Shown piece after piece: positions 1 to 17,624 of a DNA stretch of 64,000 nucleotides. Position 1 is the stretch's first letter; the number at the start of each line of letters is the position of its first letter. The translations under genes were made by a program, and so were the position numbers. The DNA is from a bacterium (lineage in GTDB: Bacteria; Elusimicrobiota; Elusimicrobia; UBA1565; UBA9628). Where the stretch lies: contig JAKAQO010000001.1 of NCBI GenBank assembly GCA_021822495.1, positions 62,001 to 126,000 on the forward strand, written 5' to 3'. A model generated the notes under the pieces. The model ran no database searches and was not told the origin of the DNA. It saw nothing but the letters and a program-made list of their open reading frames with translations.

Positions 1-697
1 CGGCAGGAGCGGCAGCTTCTTTTTTCTTCTTGGGAGAAGCGGGAGAAGACGCGGGCGGCAAGGTTCCAGGTAGTGGAGCGGCGGCGGTACCCCCGGATAA
101 ACTTCGAACCGGCGCCACAATCACTTTCCGAATTCCTTCCGCAAAAACAATCATCCCGGTTTTTTGCTCATAATAAAGCCTAAAGGGACTCTGCTTCATC
201 TGCGGATCATAAGCCTTTCCCAGATTAGCTTTCTCTTCCTCCCACCCGGGGTTATACACCAATTTTCCCCTGACGTCCACGATTCCGTCTACAATCGGCA
301 AAGAAAAACGAATTCGGTAAAAACCGTTTGAATCGCTGACCCCGGGATCGAAAGAACTAACCGCCAAGGCTTTTTCCCCCGTATCGAATTGATCTTGATT
401 CTCTTGTCCTTCAGCGGAAGCCACCGCGCGAACGACCACGCCTTGAATGGGATTATCCGCATAATCGGTGACCACTCCCTGAATATAGCCGTCTAAAAAA
501 TCGCTTTTCTTCGGAAGAGAGAAAAAAACGTAATCACTGACGCCCGTCAATTTTTCCGTGATGGAAAGGTCCACCACTCGGCCTTCGGCAAAATCCAGAA
601 CGACAATCTTTCGAGGAGCCCCGCCGCAACCCCAAAGAGTTAAAAGCGCGGCCAGGAAAAGCAGTCCCGCTTGATGGCGCGTTTTTATTTTTTTCAT
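1..697 (-). CDS. Lipoprotein with carboxypeptidase-regulatory-like domain (3' end beyond window)
   Basis: An open frame reads leftward from ATG at 697 to the window edge without a stop, so only about 232 N-terminal residues are visible. The start MKKIKTRHQAGLLFLAALL is a signal peptide ending in a lipobox-like LTLWGC, so the mature protein is probably lipid-anchored at Cys24. Around residues 70-135 there is a pattern (GYIQGVVTDYADNPIQGV, then SDSNGFYRIRF) typical of CarboxypepD_reg-like beta-sandwich modules. A Pro/Ala/Ser linker followed by KKKK comes just before the edge. The ATG overlaps the stop of the preceding gene as ATGA, so it is the last visible member of the giant-protein operon. 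Function unknown; a surface or periplasmic partner of that system is an inference. Confidence 0.75.
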   Translation of the reverse strand, partial: MKKIKTRHQAGLLFLAALLTLWGCGGAPRKIVVLDFAEGRVVDLSITEKLTGVSDYVFFSLPKKSDFLDGYIQGVVTDYADNPIQGVVVRAVASAEGQENQDQFDTGEKALAVSSFDPGVSDSNGFYRIRFSLPIVDGIVDVRGKLVYNPGWEEEKANLGKAYDPQMKQSPFRLYYEQKTGMIVFAEGIRKVIVAPVRSLSGGTAAAPLPGTLPPASSPASPKKKKEAAAPA

Positions 698-1830
698 AGA
701 AAGGAACGCCTGAAAAGGATGGCCGCAACCAGAATCGGCAAGAGGCTAAGCGAAAGCCACCACCGAGCCAAATTATCGGAGTCAGACAGAGGCGGCAATT
801 TCGGAAAGGAAACCGCGTTTAATTGAGCCTTGGAAGCGTCTGACCTGGAAACAGAAGAGAACGGAACGAAGAAATTCCATTTCGGATTTAATCTCGGAGA
901 AATTTGATCGCGCAAACCTTGATAGACTCCCCGCATTTGATCAAACAATGAGAAATCTAAAATCCGCCTAGAGACGGTCATGACAATCAAAACCGGAAAT
1001 CGGCCGATCTCGGAAATGCCTGAAAGAAAACCGCCTCCCACGCCGTTTCCGGCTTCATAAACTTGGGATGGGGCCGTCCACGAACGCAGCAAACCTCTTT
1101 TATTTGAATCTTCAGGAGAAGGAATTTCTCCAACCGGAGAAGCAGCAGGGTCTCGTCCCAAAGAAACAGACGACGCATAGTTATGGACAGTCCCTAATTC
1201 TTCTGTTGTTAGCTCCTCGCTCGCCTGAGACGGGGAAGCTAAATTCAGTAAACCAGTGGAATTTGGGACTGTCCCTAACTCCCCGATAGACAAACGCTGT
1301 TTTGAAGGCGTTTTGGATTTTCCTTGCGATAAAAGCCGCCAAAGATCATCGCTGATTTGGCGCCCCTCTTCAACTGATTTCTTTGCGCCCTTTTCCCAAA
1401 CCCTCAGATTCTGGAGAGGTTTTTTAATATCGAGTTCCCGACGCCGAATGTGTTTCGAGAAAGGCAAATTTTGGTTCCGCGGGAAAAGAACGGAAGCCCC
1501 AGCCGCTGGAACAGGCTCGACGTTATTGGTCGCCGGGCGAGTCTCCGGAGACTTTGAGGGTAAATTGGGGCTCATAGTCATCTCTGAAAGAACTCCCAAG
1601 GGAATCATTTGAGGAAGACCGGTTTGAGGATAGGTCTGGGTCAAGGGCGCGCCAATCCCTGAAGGCAAACCCGCATTTTGAGGCAAGGCCTCGAAATTCG
1701 CGGATCCCGAAAAAGCCATCGGCATCACGCCATTAGAGCCTACGATATTGCGCGAAAAAGTTCCGGCGAGGAGATTTCCCCCAAAAAGACAAAGGGCCAG
1801 AACTATTAACGCCGATGTTTTAATCTTCAT
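694..1830 (-). CDS. Exported protein with C-terminal membrane anchor, unknown function
   Basis: A 378-residue protein with an N-terminal signal peptide (roughly residues 1-23, ending near LLAG) and a C-terminal hydrophobic segment at about 355-373 followed by FRRSFL. This is a tripartite tail like that of anchored or sorted surface proteins. The middle is polar and rich in Ser, Pro and Asn, with no recognisable enzyme motif. Two stretches, LGTVPNS and LGTVHNY, are translations of palindromic DNA repeats (see 1181-1197 and 1262-1278). The start codon follows the giant gene by 9 nt. An AAGGA lies directly against the ATG, too close to act as a normal ribosome-binding site, so coupling to the upstream gene is likely. 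I do not recognise a family. Confidence 0.75.
   Translation of the reverse strand: MKIKTSALIVLALCLFGGNLLAGTFSRNIVGSNGVMPMAFSGSANFEALPQNAGLPSGIGAPLTQTYPQTGLPQMIPLGVLSEMTMSPNLPSKSPETRPATNNVEPVPAAGASVLFPRNQNLPFSKHIRRRELDIKKPLQNLRVWEKGAKKSVEEGRQISDDLWRLLSQGKSKTPSKQRLSIGELGTVPNSTGLLNLASPSQASEELTTEELGTVHNYASSVSLGRDPAASPVGEIPSPEDSNKRGLLRSWTAPSQVYEAGNGVGGGFLSGISEIGRFPVLIVMTVSRRILDFSLFDQMRGVYQGLRDQISPRLNPKWNFFVPFSSVSRSDASKAQLNAVSFPKLPPLSDSDNLARWWLSLSLLPILVAAILFRRSFL
1181..1197. repeat. Palindromic repeat inside the 694-1830 gene
   Basis: TTATGGACAGTCCCTAA is an imperfect copy of the GGGACAGTCCC palindrome. It is in frame and is read as LGTVHN on the minus strand. Confidence 0.65.
1262..1278. repeat. 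Palindromic repeat inside the 694-1830 gene
   Basis: TTTGGGACTGTCCCTAA is a near-perfect palindrome read in frame on the minus strand as LGTVPN, about 65 bp from the previous copy. Confidence 0.7.
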
Positions 1831-1839
1831 TCCTTAGAA

Positions 1840-4800
1840 TTATAGAACATTCTTCCCACGCTTTTTCTTCTTAAAAAGCGCGTTTAAAATTCCCGCCAGG
1901 CTTCCAAAGAAAAGCGTTATTTTAGCGGCATAGGAAAGAATTCTATCTTTAAGCGAAACCGCCGCATGAGGGATAAAGGAAACCGCGAGCGCAGGTTCTA
2001 GTTTTTGCAAGCGGCGAATGTAGCCTTTCCACCATGAAATCTGCCGCGCCAGGCTCTTTTCCCTTGCCCGGTCGGCTTTCAGGCGAGACTCAATTTCTTG
2101 TTGGGTCAAGACTCGAATCTCCCGCCCATAGACGTCTTCATGGAGCCGGTCCGCCGCGGCTTTAGCATTGGAATCTAACGTCGCATTTTCCTTTCTCATG
2201 CGCTCAATTTCGGCTTTTCTTTGGTTCAGGCTCGCCAAATCGCTTTTCTTTGCTGGAAGGTCTTTTTCAATTTGATCGACATATCCGCGAGCTTCCTTGT
2301 AATCGGATTGATACTCCCGCGCTCCCGCTTCTATGTGAACCGTTTTCTGGGCGCGGTTGACCCAAATATCCTCGGGCTTCCCTGAAAAGACAATCTCGCC
2401 CGAACCGGCGGCTTGAGGAGATAATCCCAGCTCTTTGTCGCTTAAAGCCTTGGCCAAGGATTGTTCCCCGACAGAGCCGTCCTTTTTAGATTCTTCGTAA
2501 GTCTTCTCCCGCCCCTGCATTTCGTTGACGACGACCTCAGACACTCCGCCGTTAAAATGAGCCAGGGTTCTTAAGCGCGCCGCGTTAATATCTTCCTGAT
2601 AATAGCGCAATAGCCGCGCCAAAAACTCCGCGCCAAAGTGAACATCCTTGTCTTTAAAGCGTCCGCTCAAAGACGCTTCGCTCTCTCCGGGCATGAGCGT
2701 CGTTTGTCCCACGCGCAAATCGGGCGGGAATTGGCTTAAGTCATAATAAGGAGTCACCGGGTCCGGAAGGAAATTAAGAACATCCAGGGCTCCCGCAACC
2801 TTACGGAAAAACCCATGATGATCAGTTTCTCCGCCTTCTGTTTTATACATCGCGACACGGCCAAGATAGTGCTGGAACCTGGGATCTCGCCCCGCCCATT
2901 CCGCCGGAAGTCCCACGATTTCGCGCGGAACCTCCATCATCAAACTCCCCCAACGCCAGGGCATCACGCCCCAATATTTTTTAAACGGCAAGTGGAAAGA
3001 AACGTTCTTGGCGCTCTGCTCCAAATATCTCTGATTCAAAAGGACGGGCAGTTCATCAATTCCCTCTTTCGATAAGCGGGTCTTAATCTCGGGGCGGATA
3101 CGCATTGCATAGTCCTCCGGGCTTTCATTCTGCTTACGCGGAATATCCTTTTTAACCGCATCAGAGACCTTGGCAATCTCCTCATGGATTTGGCTCTGAG
3201 TCTGGCCTTCCCGCCCTACCCAGACCTCATAATGGCTGACGCGCAAGGCGGGATTAAGCGTCTTGTTCTTCGCGTCAAATACGTTCTTTTTTCCCTCAAT
3301 CGTCCTTGATTTTAAGGTCCAGGATTTCGCGGCTTTTTCCATTTCAGAAGAATTGGTGTAGTATTCCTTCAAGCGTCCATCAGAATCCATCACCGCCGCA
3401 TAAATCGGGCCCCGCACATAGACAGCGGCGCTGCGCGGCGACAACCGGTCGTCCAGAACGGAACGGCCGTAGGTCGGGGAAGCCTGGGCATGGAGAACTG
3501 TTCCTTGTTTATCCAGCCCCAAAATCAAATCTCGACTGCGGTAAAGGCTCCAGGTCTTTGAATGTTGTTTGATTATGGACGCATCTTCAACCTGTTTCTT
3601 GGCGTCGGTAAACAACGCGGATTCAAGTTTTAAATTTTCGCGCGCGGCATTCAATTTCTTGGAAAGGACGCTTGCGCGTTTCTGGGCTTCTTTATAATCG
3701 TGATTAGCGGCCAATTCCTTTTTAATTTCTTTGTCCAACCGCTGGCCGTAATCCTGGTCTGACTCGTTATCTTTCCGGGGATTCTGCGCGCGAATGTCCG
3801 CTTTCACTTTTTCCAGAGTCTCGTTAGATATCCGAACTCCCTTTAACATCGCTTTCGCGGCTTCTTTTTCTTTTTTCTCGGCCGCCGCCTGAAGTTGTTG
3901 AGCCTTGACGAGTTTGAGTTGAGCGACCTTAAGGCCCGAATCCGCGTCAGAAAACGCTTTTCTCGCCGCGTTGAAATCATCCTGGCTTAAATAGATGTCT
4001 GAAACTTCTCCTTTCTCATTTCTCGCAAAACCGTATCCAGCCAATTTCAATTCCGCGTATCCGGTCCGGAGCTCCGCCTGCCTCCGATAATCAAAGAAAT
4101 CCGCCAAATCCGCGGCTCCTTTTTGGGAGAGATAAACCCGAGAAAAATCTCCCTTTAAGGAAGAAGCCTTCAGAGATTCTAGGGTCTCGAATTTATCCGA
4201 AGGCAAAACCGCTTTCCCATTATACACGTAGATTTCGTAATGGTCCGGAGACCGCGCCCAGGCCGCCAAGGCCGGAAGCCGGTAGTGCAAACGCCCCGTA
4301 TCCTTTGGATCATGAGTCTCGAAGAAAAGAACTTTTCCTTGGCTTAAAAGGCCTTGAGGGCCAAAAAGCTCTTGAACGGAATAACCCTTTTTGCCGCCGT
4401 CCTCGGCGAAATCATATCGGCTGAGGCGGTCCGCTAAATCAATCACGCGAGAATCTTCCTTAATGCCGTTTTGGGCTTCTGATTTCCGGCGTTCAAAAGC
4501 GTCCAGCCCTGGAACAAATTCAACCTTGGTATCTGATTTGAGGAAATAACGCCCTCCGCGTTCAATAATCTTATCGGCGCCTTGATATTGCGGATTAGAA
4601 CGCGTGGATAATTCCTCTTGAGTCAGCCAACCGTTTACCGCCCAAAGTCGTTGCCCATTCTTATCCACTTGAGTTTGAACATAAAGCGGATGAAGTTGCG
4701 CGCCGTTTTTGAGCCAGTCGGCCTTTTTATTTTCCAACTGCTCAATCTTAAGCGCGGCGGCATTGATGGACTCCTCCGAACGCCCTTCCCAGCGCTCCGC

Positions 4801-7800
4801 AAAAAGCCGTGATTTTTCAAGCATGATCAGGGCGTCCAAAGCGAGAATCCCCCGCCCAGCTTCCTTTGAATCAATTTGGCGGTTGAGGCTCTTTCTGGCG
4901 TCATAAAGAGCGTCCAGCGTGCGCATGAGTTCCACGTTTCCTTGAACCTCTTTGAGGTCCAAGGTCCGAATCAAATCCTCGTCAAAAACTTGCTGAGCCT
5001 TGAGATAATTGTCCAAAAGTTCGTCTCTTAGGATGAACTCGTCATTTTTCAAGGGCGAGGAGAAATAGGAATCAATCAGGGCGCCCTTGGCCAGAACTAA
5101 TTCCTGATGGTCCGCTTGAAGGGCTTTAAAGGCGGCTTCAGCCTTCGGAGAAACCGCAACCGCGTTCCAATAAGCGTCGCGAATATCCAAGGCGGCTTGG
5201 GAATATTCCGCCCGTTTCTCTTCGCTTGAGCTCAACTCCCGCTCCAAATCCTCGCGCAAAAACGTTAATTGGGGATCTTTCTTTAGAACTTCAGTTTTAA
5301 GCGCCTCAAGGCCGAACATCAAAAGATTTCTCTTTCCGCGCGCGTCATTTCTCGCCAAGAGGCGCAAGCGTTCTTGAGATGAAAAATCTTCCGCGGTCGC
5401 GTCCTTGGAATCTTGAATAGAAGTGCGGTAAAGGCGGGCAACCGAGTCAACGGAATCAATCATCTGCTGGGAAATTCCCAGGCTCTTAAGACGCTGATCT
5501 TGATCAAGGACAAAATTCGGGTCTTCCATGCGATCGGCCCAATAACTCAAAAGTCCCTTGTCGGAGGGCGGAGTAGGCAAACCCCTGTCTCCCAAAGCGC
5601 GCTGGTCCCCCAAACTAAAATTCTTAAGAGAAAGATTGGGCGCCGCTGAGTTTTCCTTCTGTCCCAAGGCCTTAAGTTCCGCGACCAGAGAAACGAAATT
5701 TGATTTTAAATCCGCCGACTGGCGAATCAGCCTTTCCCAGGCATGGACTAAATTTTTATTGGCCTCTAATAAATCTTGCTGGGCCTTAAGCGAGTCCTTG
5801 TTTTGATTAGCCGTCCATTCCTTTTGCTTTAAGTCATTGGCCGCCTCGGTCAACAGGCGGCTATCGGCCTGAACTTCCTTCATCCCGCCGGAAACGCGGG
5901 CCATTTGAGTATAGAGAACCAGTTCGAGTTTTTGAAACTGCCCCTGGGCCTTGAGCTGTTCGCGGATGGAATCAGACAGGATATTGGTCAAACCGCGCTC
6001 AATTTCCTGCGGGTCGGGGGCTTCTAAAAACCCGCCAAAAATGGGAGTTCCGCGGAAAATTCCAAACGCGGCAATAGGGGTAATTCCCTGATAGCTCATG
6101 TGTTGGGCCAATACATTAGCGCGAATTTGATTCATGAAAATATCTTTTTCGTTGTTGGGGCCAAAGGCGTCAAGCCCCAGCATTTGAGCGATGCGCGCTT
6201 TTTCCTCGGGAGAATTAATTTTTTTAACCAGACGGGGCAAATCGCCGGAAGAATCGGCGGCCGAAAATTCCGGAACAAGATTTGATAAAAGACGCAAGCG
6301 GTCCTCCGCCGTTTGCCCCACGGGTCTTGAAAGCCCCAAAAGCGCCCAAATCTCTTCCGTTTGAGCGATCGCTTTTTGATGAGCCGACTCAAACATTTTC
6401 TCCCAATCATCTCCGACTTTTTTCCCTGAATACGACTTAATCCAGTTAATAAAGCGAATATTTTCGGTGAAACTGGCCAATTCCGAATCGGCCAAAGCCG
6501 CCGCGCGCTCGCGGGCAATTTTATCCAGACGCTCGGCCTTGTCCTGGGATAATTGGGCCAGGGCGATTAAATCCGGAGCCGGAGTGTCTTTACTCTTAAG
6601 GCGCAACTCAATCCACGGCTCTAAAAAGCCGCGGTTAATCGGCGTCTCATCCAGAGTCTGCCGCGCGTAAAAATAGCGCATGAACATTTCCGCCGGAGCC
6701 TTGTCCAAGCCGGGCGCGGGAATCGGGGGCAAGGAATCCAAACGGGGAGTGCGGGTCACTTTTTCTTCGCCCTCAATCAAGCGGCGTCTGAGCTCCGCAA
6801 AACTCGCGGGAAGCGCGGCATGAGAGGGATTTGAGGAATCGCTTCCCAGGCTCATCAAAGAAGCTTCGATGACGGCTTTCTGTCCTTTAAGTTCTTCCAC
6901 CTTGGCGAGGCTAAGCGGGTCTCCCTTGGCCGACAAGCTTTGAATCTCGGAATCAATGATTTGAAGCCGGACTTGGCTGCGCGCGCGAAGAGTCGACAAA
7001 TGAGAGTCAAAGGAACCTTGCTGCCTTTCTTCCGTCAAAAGCCTCAGACGCGCGGCCATCACCTTATCGGCGCGGCCCGAATCTTCTTCCGATAAGGCGC
7101 TAATCAAACGTCCGATTGTTCGAGCCGTCAGTGAAATGGGGTCCGCCGAAACGTCCTGCACCTTCAAGTTCCTATCCACCATCTTTTGATACGCCTTGGC
7201 CACTTGAACGCGGGCCGCGAAAATGGTCTTTTGTGCCTCAACCAGATTCTGGCCTTTGAGCGTTTCCTGGAGCTGTTGATAAGCCTTCTCCGGAGAAATG
7301 TCAATGGACAAAGGAGAATCCGGCGGGCGGCCCATCAAGACATTGAGCGCCGAGTGGGCCTCATCATTAGTTAAAACCATTTGCGCTCGCCACAATTTCG
7401 CGCTGAAAATTTCTTTTTGTACTTTGTCAGCCCGCGCGCGATCATGAGAAGCCTGAGCTTGAGAGAATTGCCGCTCAAGATCGGGCAGAACTTTTTCATC
7501 CATTTGGGCGATAATGGACTGCGCGGCCTTGGCCTGAACGATATCCTGATACATTTGAAGGGCCGTCTCGACTTGAAGCTTTGATTCCAAGGCTCCGTAA
7601 TAAGCCGATTGCCCTCTATCGGCCTTGACTTGCAATTCTTTCAGTTCCTGCGGTTGGAAGCGCGCGCCGGGAATCGGCAGGATTGGAAATCCGGTAAAGC
7701 CAAAAGAAGGCAAAAACCCGGTGCCCGTGGCAGTGAGATCCGCTCCAATCATCAGGTTAATCCAGAATTTTTGGGTGACATGGTTGTCGGCTTTCGCCAA

Positions 7801-10800
7801 AGCCTGGAACTCCTCCTGATGAAGGGCCAAGGCCTCCAGGGATGAATTCTGAAACGCGGTTTGAAGGGCGCCTCCCAAATCCGAAACGCTAATGGGCGGC
7901 GCCGCTGAAGTTTTTTTACCGGCCACCACCTTATCCATTTCCGCCCAAGCCCCGGCCGTTGCGGCGCGAGATTGGGAATTGACCGTCGCCTGAGAGCTCA
8001 GATTCCACAGATTAACCGCCTGCCGAAGCTCATCTCCTGAAATCAGGCCGTTCCGATAAGCCTTTAGGGCAAATTCCAGTTCATGGCTAGTCTGGGAAAG
8101 ACCCGCCGTCATCTCTTGGGAGGTTTGCCCCCAAACCTCGGCTTCACGACGCTCATTATTGGCTAAAAGGCGGTATTGGGAATGAATATCTTCCATCTCT
8201 TTAAGATCCGCCGCCTTTTTAAACAAGTAGCTCTTCTTTTTATCTTTAGACGAGGGATCATAGAAAGGCAGGCGCAAGGTTCCGCCGACGCCAAAAATTT
8301 GCCCCGCCATCAAGTCTTGAATTTGAGTTCCGATGCCGAAAGTAAACTGATCCACAAAAGGAATCCAATCCATGATGTTAAAACGGTCTTCTCCAATTCG
8401 ATCTTCCAGAGAAGTCTTATCCAAGGATGCGAGAATTTTCTTTAAGCGGTCGGGGGCGGCCAATAGAGAATGAATCTCTTTAACTAAATTTTGAACGTCC
8501 GCGAGATTAAGATTATCAAACGGCGTTGAAGAATCAGGATTTTTTCCGGCCATGATGTTGTAGCGAACCCTGGCTTCGCTTAACTTCTCAAGGGCTTCCT
8601 GTAAACGCGCGTCGGCCTTTTCCTTTTCAACAACGGAAGAAGCGTTGCTGACCAAAAACCCCGCGCGCTCAGCCGCCAGCCGAGCCTTGACGATTTGAAG
8701 GGCGTTGTCCTCCCAATCCTTCGTCAACTCAACCAGGCGAGATTGAAGCAAAAGACCGTTTTTGTAAAGAGAGACCACCTTGCTGTCTAAAAGTTCTTTT
8801 TGCGTTTTCGTCAGCGTCATCATGGTTTCGGTGCCGCTCATAAAACCGCCGGTGGCGGCCAGTTCCGCCGGATCGTTTGAAACCGGGCCCGAAACAAAGC
8901 CGGCGTCTCCCACGACCTTGACGTTGTCTAAAATCGCGCCCGCCGATCTTAAGTCCTTGATATCATGATCCAAGGTTCCGATTTTCTGCTCAATGAGCCT
9001 TCTGCCAACGTCTTTCGCGAAAACTGTTTGAAGTTCCTTGAGTTCTTTTTGGCCTTTCTGAGGCTTAAGAAAACCCGTCATTTGCTTTTGATAGTCTTTA
9101 AGCGCTTTCCCCCCGTTTAAATCCTCCGCGGCGCTATGGGTTACGTCATCCCAGAGTTGAGAAAGACTCGCCGAGGTGTTGAACATCAAGGACAGGCGGT
9201 TATTGTAGCCGACAAACGGAGAACCGTATCCAATATCTACCTGTGAATGTTCATTCAGTTTCTTGCCAATCTGCGCGTAATAAGCGTCGGCGGGCCCCAA
9301 CATCTGGCCTTCAGCGCTGAAAACAATTCCATTTTTTGGAAGTTCCACCGACAGCTGATCAATCGCGATATTATATTGTTGTCCCAATTCCCCGGTCGCG
9401 GTGTTGGTGATATTAACCAAGGGCTTTCCGGAATCATCATGAATGGTAAAGCCTTTAAGAATCGTCGTTCCCAATGTTTGCTGGGTAATATCGTAAGTGC
9501 CGGCATAATTGGCGTAATAAAGGTCGACGGTAAACGGATTATTGTCGTCTTTAGAGACGACTCCCGCCTGTTTGAGAAGAGCCGCTACGTTAATTTTAGG
9601 CCCAAGCTGGGTTTCGTAAAAATTCGCGCTTGCCCCATGCGCGGCGATATCGAAGGTTTGGTTGAGGCTTGGATCAAGCCCCGTGAAGTCGAGATTAGCG
9701 GTCTCAAAAAATTGCCGTGGATCTTTGGCGAACAACGCCTGCTGATCGGCGTCCAAACTCATGATCGGAGTCAGTTGAATCGAGGTTTTGGCGTTAGCCC
9801 CGTAATAATAAGGTTGATTGGCTGAATTTTGCGCCGCCGCGTCCCCAAAGCCCGACAAACCTACGTAGAGTTTTCCATTCATTAAAAGCACTGCATAATC
9901 GTCAAAGAGGAGAAGACGCGACTCATTAGCCTGGGACGCAAACGACATATTGGGAGGAACGTCTAAAATATCGTGATGAATAATCGCCTCGAAATAGTTG
10001 ACGTCGTTTTTGCGCAAGGTTTCCACTTGAACGCCGACGCCCTTGTCTCCCCAAGGCGCATTTGAGGCCCCGCCGGTTTCCGGCGGAGAATAGGTGTCAT
10101 AAGCCATGACGCTGAGGTTGCTTCCCAGCGCATGAGCGACATTGCCCAAGGTCACATAGTTGGTCGAGCTCAGCCCGTAAGGAACGCCAAAACCGGTTTG
10201 ATAGACCAAATAGAAGCCGTCTTCCGAATCCCCCAGATTCATAACCTGCGCGCCAGGAACCAACTGAGAGATATTTTGAGGATTGGCGAGAATGCTTTGC
10301 CCCAAGGAACCGATATCAGCCGAGGAAGCGTTTTGTCCGCCTGTAAAGTTTGAAAGAATATTGTGGACAAAATCAGGGAAACTCGATTTTTTAATCACCA
10401 AAGCGGAAGCCCCAGAAGAAGAATTAAGCCCCATTCCCCAGCCGGAATCGCTTAGGTCAAGGGAAGCGACATCTTTCTTAATCTGATTGGGCAAGCGGTC
10501 CCATCCATCGTCTTTTAAGTTTTTGATCAAATCAGTCAACTGATCCTGTTTATCCTGAACCAAATCCATATCCGCTTTAAGGATTCTATCGGTCCGAGAG
10601 AGCTGCTCTTTCAATTTAGTCCATTTGTGATTGGATTCAAGAACCTTGCGGGTGTCATCCTGGATCTGGGAAATCGCGTCTGAAGTTCTTCGTAATGCAC
10701 TGTCATAAGGACTATTGAGTTGCCCCATCCATGATAAGAGTTCGGCTTTCGTGCTGTTGAGGCTGTTCATGGTATTTTGAAGCGCTGTCATCATCGAGTT

Positions 10801-13800
10801 CATCGCCGTTAAATTGCCTTGATCAACCGTCGTCCCAGAGCCGTAAACCTGATTGGCCATGGCTTGATAGTAGGTCGAGAGAAGGTTCACCGTCCCCAAG
10901 GACTGCGGATCGTATTGACTAATTTTGAGATTGTAGAAATTGATTCCTTCCTGAAGAACGGACTGAAGGGAATTGAGCATCGCGATTTGATTGGCGTATA
11001 CCGTCGCAGTCGGGGGGCTGTTCCCGCCGGAATTGACGTAGGATTGGTCTTGTTTCAATTGCGCCTGGGCGCTGTTAAGAGCGGCGGTTGCATCGTTTAA
11101 GAATTTCTCGGCCTGGGGAATTTCGGTGGTCAGTTCCTGCTGGGAGCTTTGAACCGTCGAAAAAGAATAGAGAAAACGCGCGATGGAATAAGAAATGGAG
11201 GGAGAATTAGGGCTACTTCCGGCTGAGGGAGCCAAGAATTTTGCCGCATCCAAAGCCAAAAGGGCCAGTTGTTGAGCATTGGAAACCGTCGGAGACGGCT
11301 GATGACCGGTTTGAACCCCCAACCCTCCTCCGCCGCCAACACTAATGGATGAGGCCGAACCTGATTGATTCGCGATATTTTTAAGCTCGGAGGCTAGTCC
11401 CGTTAGCTGTTGACTATTGGTCACGGAGAGAGAATAAATTTGATTATAGCCCGCTTGATTGGCCTGGACATTGGTCGGGAGTTGATAAGACGACAGATTA
11501 TATTTTCCGCCCGATAAAGTTTGAATTTTCGTCAAAATCTGATTGAGTTGCGCGTCCTGATCGTTAATTTGCTGGACGCGCTGGTTCATTTCGGTGGTAT
11601 AGAGCGTAATTTTTTTCGGAAGGCTGTATGGTCCGCCGCCGGGATAATTGCTGTCTTTTAAATAATCCACGGTTTCATTTCCGTTAAAATTCGGATCTTT
11701 TCTCTCATTGACCTCGGTTAGATTCGTCGAAACCGTCTGTTGAAGATTGGTGAAGTTGGTCTGCCAGGACTGCAAACTCGCTAAACTCCCGGCAGTATTT
11801 CCAGAACTGCCGCCCAAGGAGATAAGCCCCCAGGGAATGGTCTTATCGTTGAGTTGCTGAGTTTGGGTAATGAGCGAATTTTCAGCCGTGAAAAGCTGCT
11901 GGTAAACTCCGTTGGGAGACACCTGCTGAATCGAAGATTCCTGGTAAGGAATCAGTGTGTTTTGCACGGCTCCTTGAATGGCGGTTAAAGGAGTAATAAT
12001 GTCGTTTTGAAGCAGGTTTTCCTTGCGATTAATGAGAGCCTGCACCGCGCTAGTCGGAGGATTGGCGTTCGCATTGGGATATTGCGCCACGAAAGATTGG
12101 TCAGCCCCGACATCGTTAATGATATCCTGCACCATATTAACCGCCTGCTTCATGGCCGACTGAGCCTGCGGCACGGTATTTTGAAGCGCGCCCTGAATAG
12201 TCGTGACCGTCGTCTGCGCTTCGCTTCCCTGAATGACCAACCAAGCCGCCTGCGGCAAAAGGGAAGCGATTTTGACTAAATCTAATGAAGCCTGAAAAGA
12301 TTGAGGCGTCCCGTTATTGGGAATCTGGGCGTTTTGAAGAGCTGTTCCATAATTTTGAACAGCCGTCTGAAGCTGCGTCAAGGTGAGCCCCGACAGCCGC
12401 GGCAAACTCGGTCCCCCCGCCTGGCTAATTTGATCCGCCATCTGATCCATTTGAGAGGTTAGGGAGTTAATCGAGCTTTGCGCCTGGCTTAAGGTTTGAT
12501 TCGCCTGAGCTTCCCAAACCGGCAAGGACTGGGGATAAGAGCGCCCAAACTCATCAGTCACCATCGTCTGATTGTTGGGGTCCAACATGGCTTGAACGGA
12601 GTTCAAATCCTTTTGGAAAGTTTGAAGCTGCCCTTCCCAATAAGCCTTGCGGGCGCTTAAAATATCGCTTAAAGTCATTGAATTTGATATAGCCGGGCCG
12701 CCTGGAACGTCTTTAATGATAATGGGCCAAGCCTGAGTGGGAGCCGTCTTAATTTCGCTGAGTCCATTCTGGGCCGACGCAAGATTAGTCTGAACCTCGG
12801 CTAGAATACTTTTAAATTCCTTGAGCGAAAATGCCGAGGGATTGTTGGGATTTCCATTCGTGCGCCATTGGGCCACCTGCCCCAGTTCCTGCAAACGCAG
12901 TTGGAACTTCGCCTCCAAAGCCTGGGCCTCGGAATCAAAACTTCCGCTTGCGACCCCTTCATGCGAGGCGATGGTCGCCATGACCGAAGGCAAAACGTTT
13001 TGGACGGAGGTAAAAACTTGGACCGCTGAAGAAGCTTCGCTAAAATCGGAGGCTAATTGATTTTGCTGGGTTTGATCGGCCTGGGTCTGCTGAGACACTT
13101 CCTGTTGCCACTGCGGAAGATTGGACTCCATCTGTTGCGCCGCCGCCTGGTTTTGTTGCGACAAGGCCTGGGACTGGTTGATTTGCTGGATATTGGCGTT
13201 TAAAAGACCTTCCATGCCGCCAATGGCGTTTTCCGCGGAATTAATCTCGCGAAGACCCAAGGCAAAATCCATCACCGCTGAGACTTGGGAAAGGCTCTGG
13301 ATGAAGTTCATCATGTCCTGCCCGTTGCGGCGATTATTAAGGGCCTGCTGACGGGCTTTCGCCACTACTTCGAGCACTTTTCTCGTCGCATCTCTCATCT
13401 TCATCTGGGCCGCGGAATTAGTCCTCAAAACGCGAATCTGCTTCACGAGTTTTTCGATTTTGTTTTGAGTTTCTAAATCGACCTGGGAAGCAGAATCCTT
13501 GGAATTTTTGTCATTAATCCCGAGCTTTTGATCCAGACCGCTCAAAACCGATTTCAACATCCCAGAGCGCAATTCCTTGTCCTCGGCATATCCAATCCGA
13601 TCTTCCGCGCTTCTGGGAGAAAGGTCATCTAATTTTTGTTTCAACTGGTGAAGACGCTTATCTGAATTCAAGGCCCGATGGCTCAAATCATGGCTTTCCG
13701 CGAGTTTTGAGCGAATGTAACGTTCATTTTGAATCTGTCTTAATTTGGCGAGCCGGGCTTTATAGGCCTTGATTTCAGCCGCGCTCAAAGGCCGGTTTTG

Positions 13801-15966
13801 GGATTTAAGCGCCGCTTCATCTTTTTGGACCGAGGCTAAATCTTTTTGAAGCTTTAATTCCTTGGCGCGCGCGGATTTCATCTCGTCTTTGAAATTTCCC
13901 GCCGATTTTCCAAGTTCTTTAAGACGCGCCTCCCTTTGCTCCGGGGTCTTCTTGTAAAGATCGGGATCAAACGGAATGGGTTTACTTGGGGAAGAGGCCG
14001 CCGCCGTTAAAGCCGCGGCGGAAGCCCCTGAAGTGCGGGCATTTAAGCCGTGCATCACGGCATCGGACAAATTAAATCCCAGGGCCGATTCGGCCTTGTA
14101 GAGAAGAACGTTTCCCCAGGTAATCGCTCCGCCGAAAGGAATCACGCTTTGGCCTTTCGGCGCCTCAAAGGCCGAAAAAAGACCGTGAAAACCGTGGAAA
14201 TCATGTCCCGTGACCGCGTGCCAGGCGGGAGTGAGTCCCGTGTCAATCTGCGTTCCGTAGGAAAGAATCCCTTGGATTTCAGAGCCCACGGTCAAAAGCC
14301 CCAGGAAGAATTTCAGGTCCTGCCAGATAAAAAATTTCCAGAACTGGCGGGCGAAAACAGCCGAGGCCAAGGTCTGAGACCAACTGACGGAATCCAGGGG
14401 ATGCTCGGCCTCAAGCCGCCTTCGATGCTGATCCAAGGATTGCGGCAAGGTAAAAATGGTCGAGAGAATAAAGGTGTTGAGAAGAGGTCCCACGACAAAA
14501 TCTTTCATCAGGGCCTGGGTGGCGGCGGCCACGACCGGAGCGAAAATTCCCCCCAAGAATGGAATTCCAGAAATAAAAACAGGAAGGCCGTTGGCGGCCG
14601 AAACCAAAATCGGCCCCATCACGGGAATAGACAGAAGACTCAAGTGAAGAATTGCGACGCCCGGAGCCAAAGCTCCTAGAATTCCCATCGCCACCGCCGA
14701 AGCAACAGCCATTAAGAGACGCCGCCTCAAAAACGCGAGAAGCGGCAAGGGAGCGATATGGCCGAAGATTCTGACCAGGCGGCCCGGTCCGGTCGCAAGT
14801 AAACGGGAAGCCCAGGTTTCGCCGTTTCCCGATACCGCGCTCTCGCGCAGCACGCGGCGGAAAAATTTCTCGGCATTCTGGGTTTCTAGGACCAATCCTC
14901 CTTCCGCGTCGGCCAAACTTAAGAAATCCTCGGTCGAATGAGCAAAGGTATAGCTGATGTTTTGCCGGAAATAGCCCAGGACGAAAATATCGAACAAGTG
15001 GTAGGGGAAACGGACAAAAAAGCCAAGCAGATGCTTCTGAATCTCGAAGGTTCTTTTCAGGCGGCCCTTCCATCCCGGCTCGTAATGCACATTCGCCAAT
15101 TTTTGAAACCCGATGTGGTATTTCTGCGCGTCAAAGTGCTGGAACCTTTGGGCGTTGAGTCTTTGAAGTCCCAGATAAACCGCGTCCCACTCGGCATGGG
15201 GAGAGTCTTCTTTAAGCCCGACTTTAGAAGCAAGCTCTATTACGCGCGCGCGCGTAATATGAAATTGACGAGAGATTTGATCAATGATCTGGGGGGTCTT
15301 GGCGTTTAAGGGCAGACGGGAAAGTTTTGAATCGTGTTTAAGCCCGACCACCTTTCGGTATCCAAGAATATTCTCATAAAAAATCGAAACGCCCGGAGGG
15401 CCCTTGGAAGATTCCGGCGGCAAAGCCATTCCAGGGTCGTTCGGCGGCCCTATCGGCGGACCGGCGTCTCCGATTCTCCCCGCGCCGTCAAACAGAGCCG
15501 CGTTGGCCCAGGAGGAAAACTCGGCCGAGTTAGAAGCTGTCTCCGGGTCTTGGCCTTTTTCCCCGGCATTTTGTAGGCCGAGGCCCTGAACCGGATTAAG
15601 GACTGAGTTAGGGACTGTCCCTAACTTACCCTGACTTTCGCCGGAATGAAGAGAGGAATTAGGGACAGGCCCTAGTTTATTTTCGTTACCCCGGCGAAAG
15701 CCGGGGTCCAGGTTCTCGCGATGAACTGGATTCCGGCTTTCGCCGGAATGACCAGAGAAAACGGGAGCTTCGGCTCCCAAGCTAGGCGCCGCCGAGGGCT
15801 CCAGCGACTGATCCGGAAGAGAGATGGGATTTCCCAACGAATCGGAAGCGTCTTCCTTGGGGGTCTCGGCGGCTAAAACCGCGTAAAAGCGGGTTCCTGG
15901 AGACAAAAGAATCAAGCTGAGAGCCAAAAATACGGAAAGAGGCTGCTTGATCTTTTTTTGAATCAT
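1840..15966 (-). CDS. Giant exported protein with TolC/OEP-like hairpin-helix repeats
   Basis: One uninterrupted frame of 4,708 codons. Residues 1-33 form a signal peptide. About 45-105 is a low-complexity linker containing translated repeat DNA. Hydrophobic, probably membrane-inserted helices lie at about 405-520, and long Gln/Lys/Glu-rich coiled coils at about 670-1860. A beta-rich segment spans about 1865-2270. From about 2237 the pattern resembles outer-membrane efflux (OEP/TolC) repeats: short beta hairpins near 2237-2272, 2535-2570, 2736-2776 and 3292-3318, each followed by long helices. Typical OEP endings are visible (YNIMAGKNPDSSTPF; LNVLMGRPPDSPL). More coiled coil follows, with a hydrophobic helix at about 4670-4695 and a basic tail, KKKKRGKNVL. 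The ATG overlaps the upstream stop (ATGA) with no Shine-Dalgarno, so translation is coupled. Giant genes are known from Omnitrophota. The OEP assignment comes from pattern reading only; function unknown. Confidence 0.85.
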   Translation of the reverse strand: MIQKKIKQPLSVFLALSLILLSPGTRFYAVLAAETPKEDASDSLGNPISLPDQSLEPSAAPSLGAEAPVFSGHSGESRNPVHRENLDPGFRRGNENKLGPVPNSSLHSGESQGKLGTVPNSVLNPVQGLGLQNAGEKGQDPETASNSAEFSSWANAALFDGAGRIGDAGPPIGPPNDPGMALPPESSKGPPGVSIFYENILGYRKVVGLKHDSKLSRLPLNAKTPQIIDQISRQFHITRARVIELASKVGLKEDSPHAEWDAVYLGLQRLNAQRFQHFDAQKYHIGFQKLANVHYEPGWKGRLKRTFEIQKHLLGFFVRFPYHLFDIFVLGYFRQNISYTFAHSTEDFLSLADAEGGLVLETQNAEKFFRRVLRESAVSGNGETWASRLLATGPGRLVRIFGHIAPLPLLAFLRRRLLMAVASAVAMGILGALAPGVAILHLSLLSIPVMGPILVSAANGLPVFISGIPFLGGIFAPVVAAATQALMKDFVVGPLLNTFILSTIFTLPQSLDQHRRRLEAEHPLDSVSWSQTLASAVFARQFWKFFIWQDLKFFLGLLTVGSEIQGILSYGTQIDTGLTPAWHAVTGHDFHGFHGLFSAFEAPKGQSVIPFGGAITWGNVLLYKAESALGFNLSDAVMHGLNARTSGASAAALTAAASSPSKPIPFDPDLYKKTPEQREARLKELGKSAGNFKDEMKSARAKELKLQKDLASVQKDEAALKSQNRPLSAAEIKAYKARLAKLRQIQNERYIRSKLAESHDLSHRALNSDKRLHQLKQKLDDLSPRSAEDRIGYAEDKELRSGMLKSVLSGLDQKLGINDKNSKDSASQVDLETQNKIEKLVKQIRVLRTNSAAQMKMRDATRKVLEVVAKARQQALNNRRNGQDMMNFIQSLSQVSAVMDFALGLREINSAENAIGGMEGLLNANIQQINQSQALSQQNQAAAQQMESNLPQWQQEVSQQTQADQTQQNQLASDFSEASSAVQVFTSVQNVLPSVMATIASHEGVASGSFDSEAQALEAKFQLRLQELGQVAQWRTNGNPNNPSAFSLKEFKSILAEVQTNLASAQNGLSEIKTAPTQAWPIIIKDVPGGPAISNSMTLSDILSARKAYWEGQLQTFQKDLNSVQAMLDPNNQTMVTDEFGRSYPQSLPVWEAQANQTLSQAQSSINSLTSQMDQMADQISQAGGPSLPRLSGLTLTQLQTAVQNYGTALQNAQIPNNGTPQSFQASLDLVKIASLLPQAAWLVIQGSEAQTTVTTIQGALQNTVPQAQSAMKQAVNMVQDIINDVGADQSFVAQYPNANANPPTSAVQALINRKENLLQNDIITPLTAIQGAVQNTLIPYQESSIQQVSPNGVYQQLFTAENSLITQTQQLNDKTIPWGLISLGGSSGNTAGSLASLQSWQTNFTNLQQTVSTNLTEVNERKDPNFNGNETVDYLKDSNYPGGGPYSLPKKITLYTTEMNQRVQQINDQDAQLNQILTKIQTLSGGKYNLSSYQLPTNVQANQAGYNQIYSLSVTNSQQLTGLASELKNIANQSGSASSISVGGGGGLGVQTGHQPSPTVSNAQQLALLALDAAKFLAPSAGSSPNSPSISYSIARFLYSFSTVQSSQQELTTEIPQAEKFLNDATAALNSAQAQLKQDQSYVNSGGNSPPTATVYANQIAMLNSLQSVLQEGINFYNLKISQYDPQSLGTVNLLSTYYQAMANQVYGSGTTVDQGNLTAMNSMMTALQNTMNSLNSTKAELLSWMGQLNSPYDSALRRTSDAISQIQDDTRKVLESNHKWTKLKEQLSRTDRILKADMDLVQDKQDQLTDLIKNLKDDGWDRLPNQIKKDVASLDLSDSGWGMGLNSSSGASALVIKKSSFPDFVHNILSNFTGGQNASSADIGSLGQSILANPQNISQLVPGAQVMNLGDSEDGFYLVYQTGFGVPYGLSSTNYVTLGNVAHALGSNLSVMAYDTYSPPETGGASNAPWGDKGVGVQVETLRKNDVNYFEAIIHHDILDVPPNMSFASQANESRLLLFDDYAVLLMNGKLYVGLSGFGDAAAQNSANQPYYYGANAKTSIQLTPIMSLDADQQALFAKDPRQFFETANLDFTGLDPSLNQTFDIAAHGASANFYETQLGPKINVAALLKQAGVVSKDDNNPFTVDLYYANYAGTYDITQQTLGTTILKGFTIHDDSGKPLVNITNTATGELGQQYNIAIDQLSVELPKNGIVFSAEGQMLGPADAYYAQIGKKLNEHSQVDIGYGSPFVGYNNRLSLMFNTSASLSQLWDDVTHSAAEDLNGGKALKDYQKQMTGFLKPQKGQKELKELQTVFAKDVGRRLIEQKIGTLDHDIKDLRSAGAILDNVKVVGDAGFVSGPVSNDPAELAATGGFMSGTETMMTLTKTQKELLDSKVVSLYKNGLLLQSRLVELTKDWEDNALQIVKARLAAERAGFLVSNASSVVEKEKADARLQEALEKLSEARVRYNIMAGKNPDSSTPFDNLNLADVQNLVKEIHSLLAAPDRLKKILASLDKTSLEDRIGEDRFNIMDWIPFVDQFTFGIGTQIQDLMAGQIFGVGGTLRLPFYDPSSKDKKKSYLFKKAADLKEMEDIHSQYRLLANNERREAEVWGQTSQEMTAGLSQTSHELEFALKAYRNGLISGDELRQAVNLWNLSSQATVNSQSRAATAGAWAEMDKVVAGKKTSAAPPISVSDLGGALQTAFQNSSLEALALHQEEFQALAKADNHVTQKFWINLMIGADLTATGTGFLPSFGFTGFPILPIPGARFQPQELKELQVKADRGQSAYYGALESKLQVETALQMYQDIVQAKAAQSIIAQMDEKVLPDLERQFSQAQASHDRARADKVQKEIFSAKLWRAQMVLTNDEAHSALNVLMGRPPDSPLSIDISPEKAYQQLQETLKGQNLVEAQKTIFAARVQVAKAYQKMVDRNLKVQDVSADPISLTARTIGRLISALSEEDSGRADKVMAARLRLLTEERQQGSFDSHLSTLRARSQVRLQIIDSEIQSLSAKGDPLSLAKVEELKGQKAVIEASLMSLGSDSSNPSHAALPASFAELRRRLIEGEEKVTRTPRLDSLPPIPAPGLDKAPAEMFMRYFYARQTLDETPINRGFLEPWIELRLKSKDTPAPDLIALAQLSQDKAERLDKIARERAAALADSELASFTENIRFINWIKSYSGKKVGDDWEKMFESAHQKAIAQTEEIWALLGLSRPVGQTAEDRLRLLSNLVPEFSAADSSGDLPRLVKKINSPEEKARIAQMLGLDAFGPNNEKDIFMNQIRANVLAQHMSYQGITPIAAFGIFRGTPIFGGFLEAPDPQEIERGLTNILSDSIREQLKAQGQFQKLELVLYTQMARVSGGMKEVQADSRLLTEAANDLKQKEWTANQNKDSLKAQQDLLEANKNLVHAWERLIRQSADLKSNFVSLVAELKALGQKENSAAPNLSLKNFSLGDQRALGDRGLPTPPSDKGLLSYWADRMEDPNFVLDQDQRLKSLGISQQMIDSVDSVARLYRTSIQDSKDATAEDFSSQERLRLLARNDARGKRNLLMFGLEALKTEVLKKDPQLTFLREDLERELSSSEEKRAEYSQAALDIRDAYWNAVAVSPKAEAAFKALQADHQELVLAKGALIDSYFSSPLKNDEFILRDELLDNYLKAQQVFDEDLIRTLDLKEVQGNVELMRTLDALYDARKSLNRQIDSKEAGRGILALDALIMLEKSRLFAERWEGRSEESINAAALKIEQLENKKADWLKNGAQLHPLYVQTQVDKNGQRLWAVNGWLTQEELSTRSNPQYQGADKIIERGGRYFLKSDTKVEFVPGLDAFERRKSEAQNGIKEDSRVIDLADRLSRYDFAEDGGKKGYSVQELFGPQGLLSQGKVLFFETHDPKDTGRLHYRLPALAAWARSPDHYEIYVYNGKAVLPSDKFETLESLKASSLKGDFSRVYLSQKGAADLADFFDYRRQAELRTGYAELKLAGYGFARNEKGEVSDIYLSQDDFNAARKAFSDADSGLKVAQLKLVKAQQLQAAAEKKEKEAAKAMLKGVRISNETLEKVKADIRAQNPRKDNESDQDYGQRLDKEIKKELAANHDYKEAQKRASVLSKKLNAARENLKLESALFTDAKKQVEDASIIKQHSKTWSLYRSRDLILGLDKQGTVLHAQASPTYGRSVLDDRLSPRSAAVYVRGPIYAAVMDSDGRLKEYYTNSSEMEKAAKSWTLKSRTIEGKKNVFDAKNKTLNPALRVSHYEVWVGREGQTQSQIHEEIAKVSDAVKKDIPRKQNESPEDYAMRIRPEIKTRLSKEGIDELPVLLNQRYLEQSAKNVSFHLPFKKYWGVMPWRWGSLMMEVPREIVGLPAEWAGRDPRFQHYLGRVAMYKTEGGETDHHGFFRKVAGALDVLNFLPDPVTPYYDLSQFPPDLRVGQTTLMPGESEASLSGRFKDKDVHFGAEFLARLLRYYQEDINAARLRTLAHFNGGVSEVVVNEMQGREKTYEESKKDGSVGEQSLAKALSDKELGLSPQAAGSGEIVFSGKPEDIWVNRAQKTVHIEAGAREYQSDYKEARGYVDQIEKDLPAKKSDLASLNQRKAEIERMRKENATLDSNAKAAADRLHEDVYGREIRVLTQQEIESRLKADRAREKSLARQISWWKGYIRRLQKLEPALAVSFIPHAAVSLKDRILSYAAKITLFFGSLAGILNALFKKKKRGKNVL
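15608..15624. repeat. Palindromic repeat in the giant gene's N-terminal linker
   Basis: TTAGGGACTGTCCCTAA, a perfect inverted repeat about one central base, read in frame as KLGTVPNS-type sequence. Confidence 0.75.
15632..15649. repeat. Half copy of the TTTCGCCGGAATGA repeat in the giant gene
   Basis: TGACTTTCGCCGGAATGA matches the right arm of the element at 15685-15752 and is translated as HSGESQ. Confidence 0.6.
15659..15675. repeat. Palindromic repeat in the giant gene's N-terminal linker
   Basis: TTAGGGACAGGCCCTAG is a slightly diverged copy of the same palindrome, translated as LGPVPNS. Confidence 0.7.
15685..15752. repeat. REP-like inverted element inside the giant gene
   Basis: Two inverted arms (CCCCGGCGAAAGCCGGGGTC and GGATTCCGGCTTTCGCCGG) separated by about 22 nt, each itself a small hairpin. 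This is the widespread REP-type sequence that appears in many bacterial proteins as SGESRNP...DPGFRRG. Here it is translated in frame in the disordered linker after the signal peptide. Confidence 0.8.
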
Positions 15967-17453
15967 GCGTAGACGAGAGAAAATCGGCGCGGCGAGTTGA
16001 CAGCCAGCGGGCCCTCCTTTTTACCGCTGGAATCCGGGCGTTTAAGCGCGCGATAGGTGATGAAAGAAAATAAGAACTGTAGGACGTTGGACGCCGCGAC
16101 CAGAATCAAATCAATATGCTTGGCCGGGTTTTGCCAAGCCTGAGTTCCTCCCCAAACGACAAAGCATGCGGCAATGAGGCAAAAAATCAGAACGAAACTC
16201 GGGGCGAAACTATTCGGCTTTTCTCCCCGCCGGATGGCCATCAAATCCGGAACAAACAAGGACAAATAGAAACCCTGGACTAAAATCTGAATTCCCGCGC
16301 TAATAAGAGGCAATGAAACCGGGGAGAAAGACGCAATGAGTGAGGGCATAAAAACCCCCAGGCCGAAATACATCCCAAAGCCCGCAGCAATGAGAAGAGG
16401 CGCCAAGGCCACGGTCATTTGAAGAGCACGGTCGGTCTTAAGCTCGCTCAACCATCTCCGAATCCACGACCCTTCTTGGGAAGGAACGTTGGGTTGCGTT
16501 TTTTCCTTGGGAAGAAATTTCGCCAACATAATTCCCACGGCCAAAACAGCGGAAACCGACAAACATTCCGAACCCCATAAGAATTTATCCGCCGCGGTCT
16601 GCGCCGGAGCGACAATGAGCCCCACCATGAGGTTCGCCGCAATCACCCCGTAAGTTCTCCAGTTATAGCTTCTCTTCTTGATGAGATCATGAAGTTCCGG
16701 AATCGCCATCACAAAACCCAAAGCCATGCTGACCCAATACGCCCCCCGCGCAAAAAGAGGCCAGGCCGCCGCCAAGAAGGCCAGGCTTCCATGGGTCGCC
16801 GGAGCGCTGTGAAGCGCCTCGGCATAGGCGGGGAGAGCCACCGCCGCTGAAACGCCCGCCGCCCCGACGGCTACCGAGGCTTTTCTAAGCCTCGATCGCA
16901 ACGAACCTGAAATCTTTCCGGCAACCACTTCTCCCGAGGGCAACGCGCGAGAAGAAGCGTTCTCTCCATCATAAAGCCGTCGAATCGCCTGTAAGCCGGA
17001 AGATACGCCCTGCTTAGACCCGAATACGCGAGAGCTCAGTCGACCTAAAATCGAATTTTTCGCCCGCGCCCCATTTTCCGGCCCCAAAGGCGTCGAGGAA
17101 GACAAAAGCTCTGATTGTTGTCTGGCTGGCAAATCCAGAGCGGATGAGGGGGTTACTTTCTTTTCGAGTTTCCCTACCGCCTTTTCTCGAAGAGCGGCCT
17201 TGGGAAGCGAAAGAGCCTCTGGCGCATTCAATAGAGTCGAACGAAGGGAATTGAGTTCCGTTTGGGAGACATCAGGTAACGACAGAGCTCCGGAATTTAA
17301 ACCTTGGGAAAGAGCGGGCACGGACTCAATTGAAGAATCCGTCTGTTGCCCGATATCCTTGGCCAACGCTTGATAAGCCTCACCGGGCCACAAAATCCCC
17401 ATGGAAAAGGCTAGACCCAAGGCGATCACGCGCTTAAATAACTTCTCTTTCAT
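15963..17453 (-). CDS. Polytopic membrane protein with signal peptide and two PQ-loop-like halves
   Basis: I place the start at ATG 17453 because AAAGGAAACC lies just upstream and the protein then begins with a good signal peptide (MKEKLFKRVIALGLAFSMG). The open frame itself extends further, to 17576. The 496-residue product has a polar Ser/Leu-rich region to about residue 200. Two similar membrane halves of about three helices follow. Each half carries a Pro-acidic motif before a basic loop (GFVMAIPELHDLIKKRSYN and LFVPDLMAIRRGEKPN). This recalls PQ-loop/SemiSWEET transporters with the Gln replaced by an acidic residue, a weak resemblance. It is the first gene of the giant-protein operon, and its stop overlaps the giant gene's start. 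Confidence 0.7.
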   Translation of the reverse strand: MKEKLFKRVIALGLAFSMGILWPGEAYQALAKDIGQQTDSSIESVPALSQGLNSGALSLPDVSQTELNSLRSTLLNAPEALSLPKAALREKAVGKLEKKVTPSSALDLPARQQSELLSSSTPLGPENGARAKNSILGRLSSRVFGSKQGVSSGLQAIRRLYDGENASSRALPSGEVVAGKISGSLRSRLRKASVAVGAAGVSAAVALPAYAEALHSAPATHGSLAFLAAAWPLFARGAYWVSMALGFVMAIPELHDLIKKRSYNWRTYGVIAANLMVGLIVAPAQTAADKFLWGSECLSVSAVLAVGIMLAKFLPKEKTQPNVPSQEGSWIRRWLSELKTDRALQMTVALAPLLIAAGFGMYFGLGVFMPSLIASFSPVSLPLISAGIQILVQGFYLSLFVPDLMAIRRGEKPNSFAPSFVLIFCLIAACFVVWGGTQAWQNPAKHIDLILVAASNVLQFLFSFITYRALKRPDSSGKKEGPLAVNSPRRFSLVYA

Positions 17454-17489
17454 GGTTTCCTTTTGAAACGAACACTGGAACCAACCATT

Positions 17490-17509
17490 TCCTCGCTTAA
17501 GCTCGGTCA
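17490..17509 (-). repeat. Copy of the ATGACYGAGCTTAAGCGAGG repeat
   Basis: On the minus strand this 20-mer differs at one base from the start of the small ORF at 62999-63018. It lies in the leader of the giant-protein operon, in frame with its first gene (MTELKRG), 36 nt before the chosen start. Confidence 0.6.
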
Positions 17510-17624
17510 TATTCTTAGGGTAAATCATTTTCAATTTAAAGACATGGGCCAAAGGTCCTAGAAAAGACCCCGCCAAAAGACCTAGACATTTTCGCCCTTT
17601 TTTGGGGATTTCGGCCCACGGGAT

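Follow-up and report, generated by a model that had tools for sequence, protein, structure and literature searches.

Our analysis concerns a window of 64,000 nucleotides from an Elusimicrobiota MAG (2.2 Mb, 15 contigs), in which a giant open reading frame (P0001) of 4,708 codons occupies positions 1840..15966. A first-pass annotation, made from the letters of the window, had described a single open frame over this interval, and so it proves to be; the frame runs on the minus strand, from 15966 to 1840, while the plus strand of the same interval is rich in stops and without a long frame. Nucleotide positions given below are those of the window, residue numbers are those of the giant protein, and the genes and protein features named lie on the minus strand. 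About 20 full-length relatives are colinear with the giant protein over about residues 170-4660, and full-length orthologues outside the genus are 29-40% identical to it. Conservation extends along the whole length, except in the first 170 residues and in an insert near 4251-4300 that is specific to the genus, and dN/dS within the genus is about 0.1, with its minimum in 1880-2690. Counted from a table of 97 related genomes, the gene is present in 46 of the 56 genomes of the same order (its own genome counted) and in 5 of the 41 genomes from elsewhere in the class, and residues 2200-3450 are matched in 51 of the 97; in a sample of the phylum, 38 of 294 genomes gave a match. A dN/dS of about 0.1 and presence in this many genomes of the order argue that the frame did not arise by chance, and it is a genuine, conserved gene.

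The relatives are likewise giant open reading frames, of about 3,300 to 5,650 residues, and the family was found in Elusimicrobiota only. A fully supported branch separates two paralogue groups, a long one (4,200-5,650 residues) and a short one (3,300-3,900 residues), both of which retain the TolC region described below. Many genomes carry a long and a short paralogue together; the genome of the window has a single copy. The short forms align only from near residue 750 and have few transmembrane (TM) segments, and therefore do without the N-terminal TM bundle. In one single-contig genome (G037; L103 / L076 / L077) both giant copies are broken into several frames, as pseudogenes or through sequencing frameshifts.

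Upstream of the giant gene lies a gene for a 537-residue protein with eight predicted TM segments (15963..17576), whose stop overlaps the start of the giant frame (ATGA). In three relatives (L088, E 2e-8; L085; L110) the giant protein carries the TM part of this neighbour as an in-frame fusion at its N-terminus, an arrangement which suggests that the two proteins act jointly. A PQ-loop identity for the neighbour, an idea formed by eye, was dropped when Pfam gave it no support; neither of the two same-strand neighbours, nor the TM region of the giant protein itself, has a Pfam match. In the N-terminal extension of the long relatives, as seen in L088:698-3997, the eight-TM part precedes two or more mutually similar repeats, each about 120 residues long, which look PepSY-like by eye and have no Pfam match. 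Downstream, a 378-residue protein with hydrophobic segments at its N- and C-terminus (694..1830) is found in the same genus only. Short palindromic repeats, of the TTAGGGACTGTCCCTAA type and of the form CATTCCGGCGAAAGCCGGAATCC...GGCTTTCGCCGGGGT, occur at window positions 15608-15750 and 1181-1278. They lie inside coding sequence, in the variable N-terminus of the giant protein and in the downstream 378-residue gene, and are translated as LGTVPNS and SGESRNPV...LDPGFRRG; a REP-element pattern search of the genome itself returned nothing.

Within the giant protein, hydropathy marks a signal-peptide-like N-terminal segment (residues 12-30; 15877..15933), four predicted TM segments (about residues 409-508; 14443..14742), which are also present in most long relatives, and a C-terminal TM segment (residues 4676-4694; 1885..1941) followed by a KKKKRGK tail. 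The N-terminal hydrophobic stretch and the hydrophobic helices of the first-pass annotation are thereby recovered, the set of four at 417-508, and the membrane topology assumed throughout is the one predicted from hydropathy. Residues 700-1880 (10327..13869) make up a helical region rich in Q/N/S/T that has matches of coiled-coil type only; these 1,180 residues are presumably a periplasmic coiled coil. Next comes a conserved beta-rich domain (residues 1880-2300; 9067..10329; dN/dS 0.05-0.09), in which conservation across the family is highest and which matches no known family. The TolC signal discussed below is absent from the helical and mixed region towards the C-terminus (residues 3450-4660; 1987..5619). 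Pfam profile searches of the giant protein detected neither a transporter domain of the ABC, RND or MFS type nor an adaptor domain of the HlyD type. Weak Pfam names such as DNA_pol3_tau_5, divDNApol and ATG17 lay far below the cut-off and were set aside as coiled-coil or chance matches, and an isolated weak HMM match at 4051-4129 (5 bits) was not accepted either.

What, then, is the part of the chain between the beta-rich domain and residue 3450? We divide it into three TolC-like protomers, A (residues 2340-2690; 7897..8949), B (residues 2690-3045; 6832..7899) and C (residues 3045-3440; 5647..6834), each with a first and a second half (A1, A2 and so on). Profile, AlphaFold2 and VIA-align results mark out A and B, while C is delimited by a separate model, Foldseek and VIA-align, its sequence signal being weak. 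Taken alone, the window protein finds no useful match in Pfam, NCBIfam or PDB sequences, and no Pfam OEP (PF02321). This family is, however, matched by 5 of 30 relatives, at best with 1e-6. In L096 the match exceeds the curated cut-off (27 vs 22 bits) and falls at the position of residues 2559-2654, in A2; in L108 a weak, sub-threshold match falls at about 3305-3385, in C2. In a sliding profile-profile scan of the giant family against 28 ordinary Elusimicrobiota TolCs, the probability reached up to 93% over 2251-3150 and was weak over 3151-3600 (10.7% at best). Everywhere outside about 2300-3450, the N- and C-terminal thirds included, the TolC signal was at background (under 1%; under 0.6% in a reversed control).

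Comparing half-units by profile-profile alignment, we found a match to the second half of TolC in A2 (2485-2690), at 91%, and one to its first half in B1 (2685-2890), at 94% and in full register (profile columns 1-201 of 201, residues 2694-2886). A1 matches the first half at 25% and C2 the second half at 17%, values that are weak yet above those of five helical stretches of the giant protein used as controls (at most 1.7%); B2 and C1 gave no sequence-level TolC signal in this comparison, remaining at background. The first-pass annotation had singled out two motifs as the beginning and end of an OEP repeat, and the stretch that they bound, PPISVSDLGG...LNVLMGRPPDSPL, does cover exactly one first OEP half; in the profile alignment LNVLMGRPPDSPL ends the first half of protomer B (residues 2874-2886; 7309..7347). 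The distance from the end motif of A1 (YNIMAGKNP, G2474) to that of B1 (LNVLMGRPP, G2879) is 405 residues, which is close to one TolC core (395 residues in the template), and around these motifs A1 and B1 match each other at 62-67% by profile. Profile self-comparisons of A with C and of B with C stayed at background. Homology to PF02321 is thus seen in A2 and B1 and in the relative L096, and at the level of profiles A2 and B1 are shown to be homologous to TolC.

Structure prediction extends this picture. An AlphaFold2 model of residues 2250-3445, built from 35 sequences and of middling quality (pLDDT 69, pTM 0.68), places beta hairpins at 2349-2386 (A1; 8809..8922), 2540-2569 (A2; 8260..8349), 2731-2770 (B1; 7657..7776), 3092-3122 (C1; 6601..6693) and 3296-3316 (C2; 6019..6081), with two long helices after each, and, between the units of B1 and C1, a helix pair that has no hairpin (2965-3039). 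Amphipathic alternation also marks A2 and B1, the profile marks A2, and C1 and C2 recur in both of our models. Hairpins near 2535, 2736 and 3292 had been proposed in the first-pass annotation and are present in the models, while a fourth that it proposed, near 2237, falls just short of residue 2250, where the model starts; those at 2349-2386 and 3092-3122 are additions by AlphaFold2. The predicted helix pairs of A2 (66+38 residues), B1 (67+35) and C2 (70+41) agree in length with those of OprM and other OMFs, where H3/H7 have 67 and H4/H8 36 residues (PMC8277102), whereas the pairs of A1, B2 and C1 are shorter, about 50+25, and B2 is the one without a hairpin.

Searched with Foldseek against the PDB, this model returned TolC-family chains throughout the top 40 rows (best E 2e-4, with prob at or close to 1.0), and VIA-align gave TolC, CusC, OprM and OprN as the best PDB matches, at Z 16-17.4. 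The VIA-align matches fall in two registers, one covering residues 2400-2881 and the other aligning residues 2694-3041 with whole OprN / 5azo chains at Z 16.7. Since the first model hardly probed residues 3040-3450, we predicted that part separately (37 sequences, pLDDT 62.5). Here the TolC family takes every one of the top 43 Foldseek rows, with E from 1.9e-5 and the first unrelated row at 0.11, and VIA-align covers the whole of protomer C at Z 9.7-11.6, the next unrelated rows being at 9.4 and 8.5 and the best value, 11.6, falling short of the figure of about 13 that is recommended when proteins are helical. While TM-scores are low and the placement of hairpins in the models is uncertain, the match in topology is clear, and protomers A, B and C are shown by these models to have a TolC-like predicted fold. 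Because controlled profile-profile matches, the Pfam OEP match of a relative and the fold matches all concur, a TolC origin of residues 2340-3440 is supported by sequence and model alike.

The hairpins of the first halves begin at 2349, 2731 and 3092 (spacing 382 and 361) and those of the second halves at 2540 and 3296, so that A-B-C holds six half-units, five of them with a beta hairpin. The simplest reading of sequence and models is that three TolC protomers, A, B and C, follow one another head to tail. The earlier suggestion that the chain carries part or all of a TolC channel stands as regards TolC origin and needs correction as regards number, there being three protomer-like units rather than one; likewise the hairpins near 2535 and 2736, which had been taken for the two halves of one protomer, are by parity the second half of A and the first half of B. 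Since profile self-comparisons with C are at background, the case for a third protomer is made by its fold, by the layout and by the weak signal in C2. The second hairpin of protomer B is missing, with a vestige near 2937. Read by eye, a relative with about 21% identity to the giant protein (L069) follows the same pattern and likewise misses the B2 hairpin, and the loss is therefore old. With this hairpin absent, only ten strands are predicted for the barrel, compared with 12 in TolC and the OMFs. Residues 2203-2264 (9175..9360) form amphipathic strands, some of them among the most alternating in the chain, with alternation high near 2237; they could add two strands and are a candidate sixth hairpin that would close the barrel.

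What could such a chain do? We think it probable, if far from assured, that it forms a three-protomer, single-chain, pseudo-trimeric outer-membrane channel within a covalent conduit or export machine that crosses the envelope. With three TolC-type protomers joined, one chain could supply what the TolC homotrimer supplies. Residues 2340-3440 would then be the single-chain channel in the outer membrane, with an alpha-helical periplasmic tunnel, A, B and C closing into one barrel and tunnel and the strands at 2203-2264 replacing the missing hairpin. Anchorage in the inner membrane would come from the signal peptide, the N-terminal TM bundle and the C-terminal TM helix of the same chain, and its coiled coil of 1,180 residues would bridge the periplasm. 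The giant protein, together with its co-encoded and sometimes fused eight-TM partner, would constitute the covalent conduit or export machine, spanning both membranes and exporting some substrate. The fullest version, a whole trans-envelope export machine made of one polypeptide and a small TM partner, with inner-membrane bundle, coiled-coil bridge and a closed 12-stranded TolC channel completed by 2203-2264, we put forward only tentatively, and it is rather doubtful that all of its parts hold at once.

The main rival to the channel reading is a degenerate scaffold, in which the TolC-derived units lack an open pore and serve as an outer-membrane anchor for the giant protein or as a rigid periplasmic strut tethering the two membranes. 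One hairpin is gone even in L069 (as read by eye), three of the six helix pairs are shortened, to about 50+25 against 67+36, the sequence signal is lost in B2 and C1, and the 2.2 Mb genome retains, in addition to the giant gene, about 11 ordinary genes of the TolC family. On the other hand, purifying selection is strong in exactly the TolC region (dN/dS 0.07-0.11), A2, B1 and C2 retain full-length 67+36 helix pairs, and the candidate sixth hairpin sits directly upstream; such a scaffold is a serious but improbable alternative. It is less likely again that at least two giant chains, or a long and a short paralogue, build a larger barrel (e.g. of 20-24 strands) or a hetero-complex: the co-occurrence of the two fully supported groups in many genomes, with the TolC region in both, would fit such an assembly, but the single copy in the genome of the window would not, and three protomers per chain already amount to a TolC ring. 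Finally, a generic coiled coil with chance hairpins and a spurious likeness to TolC, the outcome that would have spoken against the first-pass annotation, is largely refuted and very improbable indeed, for although much of the chain is helical and the window protein has no Pfam OEP match, equally helical stretches of it score at background, and in fold searches with two independent models TolC-family chains rank ahead of every other helical protein.

How does the proposed pseudo-trimeric channel relate to known systems? Known OMFs are homotrimers of chains of about 450 residues, and the OMF channels covered by a review are all trimers of separate chains (PMC8277102). The giant protein resembles TolC, OprM and CusC (PF02321) in a half-unit that combines a beta hairpin with a helix of 67 residues and shorter helices in pairs, in an LxGRPP-type motif at the end of the first half and a YxxG-type motif in the second, and in predicted fold (Z 16-17). 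It differs from them in that a single chain of 4,708 residues holds the equivalent of three protomers, with one hairpin missing, and in the TM anchors and long coiled-coil region fused onto its TolC units. Because it is not a separate chain of about 450 residues that forms a homotrimer, we regard it as a derived TolC module and not as a standard OMF. Like tripartite efflux pumps and type 1 secretion systems, the proposed machine would cross the envelope by combining an inner-membrane part with long helices in the periplasm and a TolC-like part in the outer membrane; unlike in those systems, this would be done by one chain and its eight-TM partner, with no transporter or HlyD-type adaptor domain detected.

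Elusimicrobiota belong to those bacterial phyla in which huge proteins are most frequent, proteins to which no function has been assigned (PMC11573180), and giant open reading frames with TM helices occur in Omnitrophota (PMC10066038). The huge proteins of Elusimicrobiota, Planctomycetota and Omnitrophota have been reported as without assigned function, as poorly conserved or as adhesin-like, whereas the family described here is well conserved and has a recognisable TolC triplet. We found no paper on a tandem, single-chain or giant TolC in the open-licence literature. What is new here is the covalent architecture; the fold is the known one of TolC. With three TolC units in one chain, a single molecule may make a whole outer-membrane channel that is tethered to the inner membrane. 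If this is true, a conserved giant envelope protein contains a concatenated, asymmetric TolC, a channel could be built from one gene, and each third of it could be mutated independently. More generally, it would offer a first point of entry into the structures of the uncharacterised giant proteins that Elusimicrobiota are known for.
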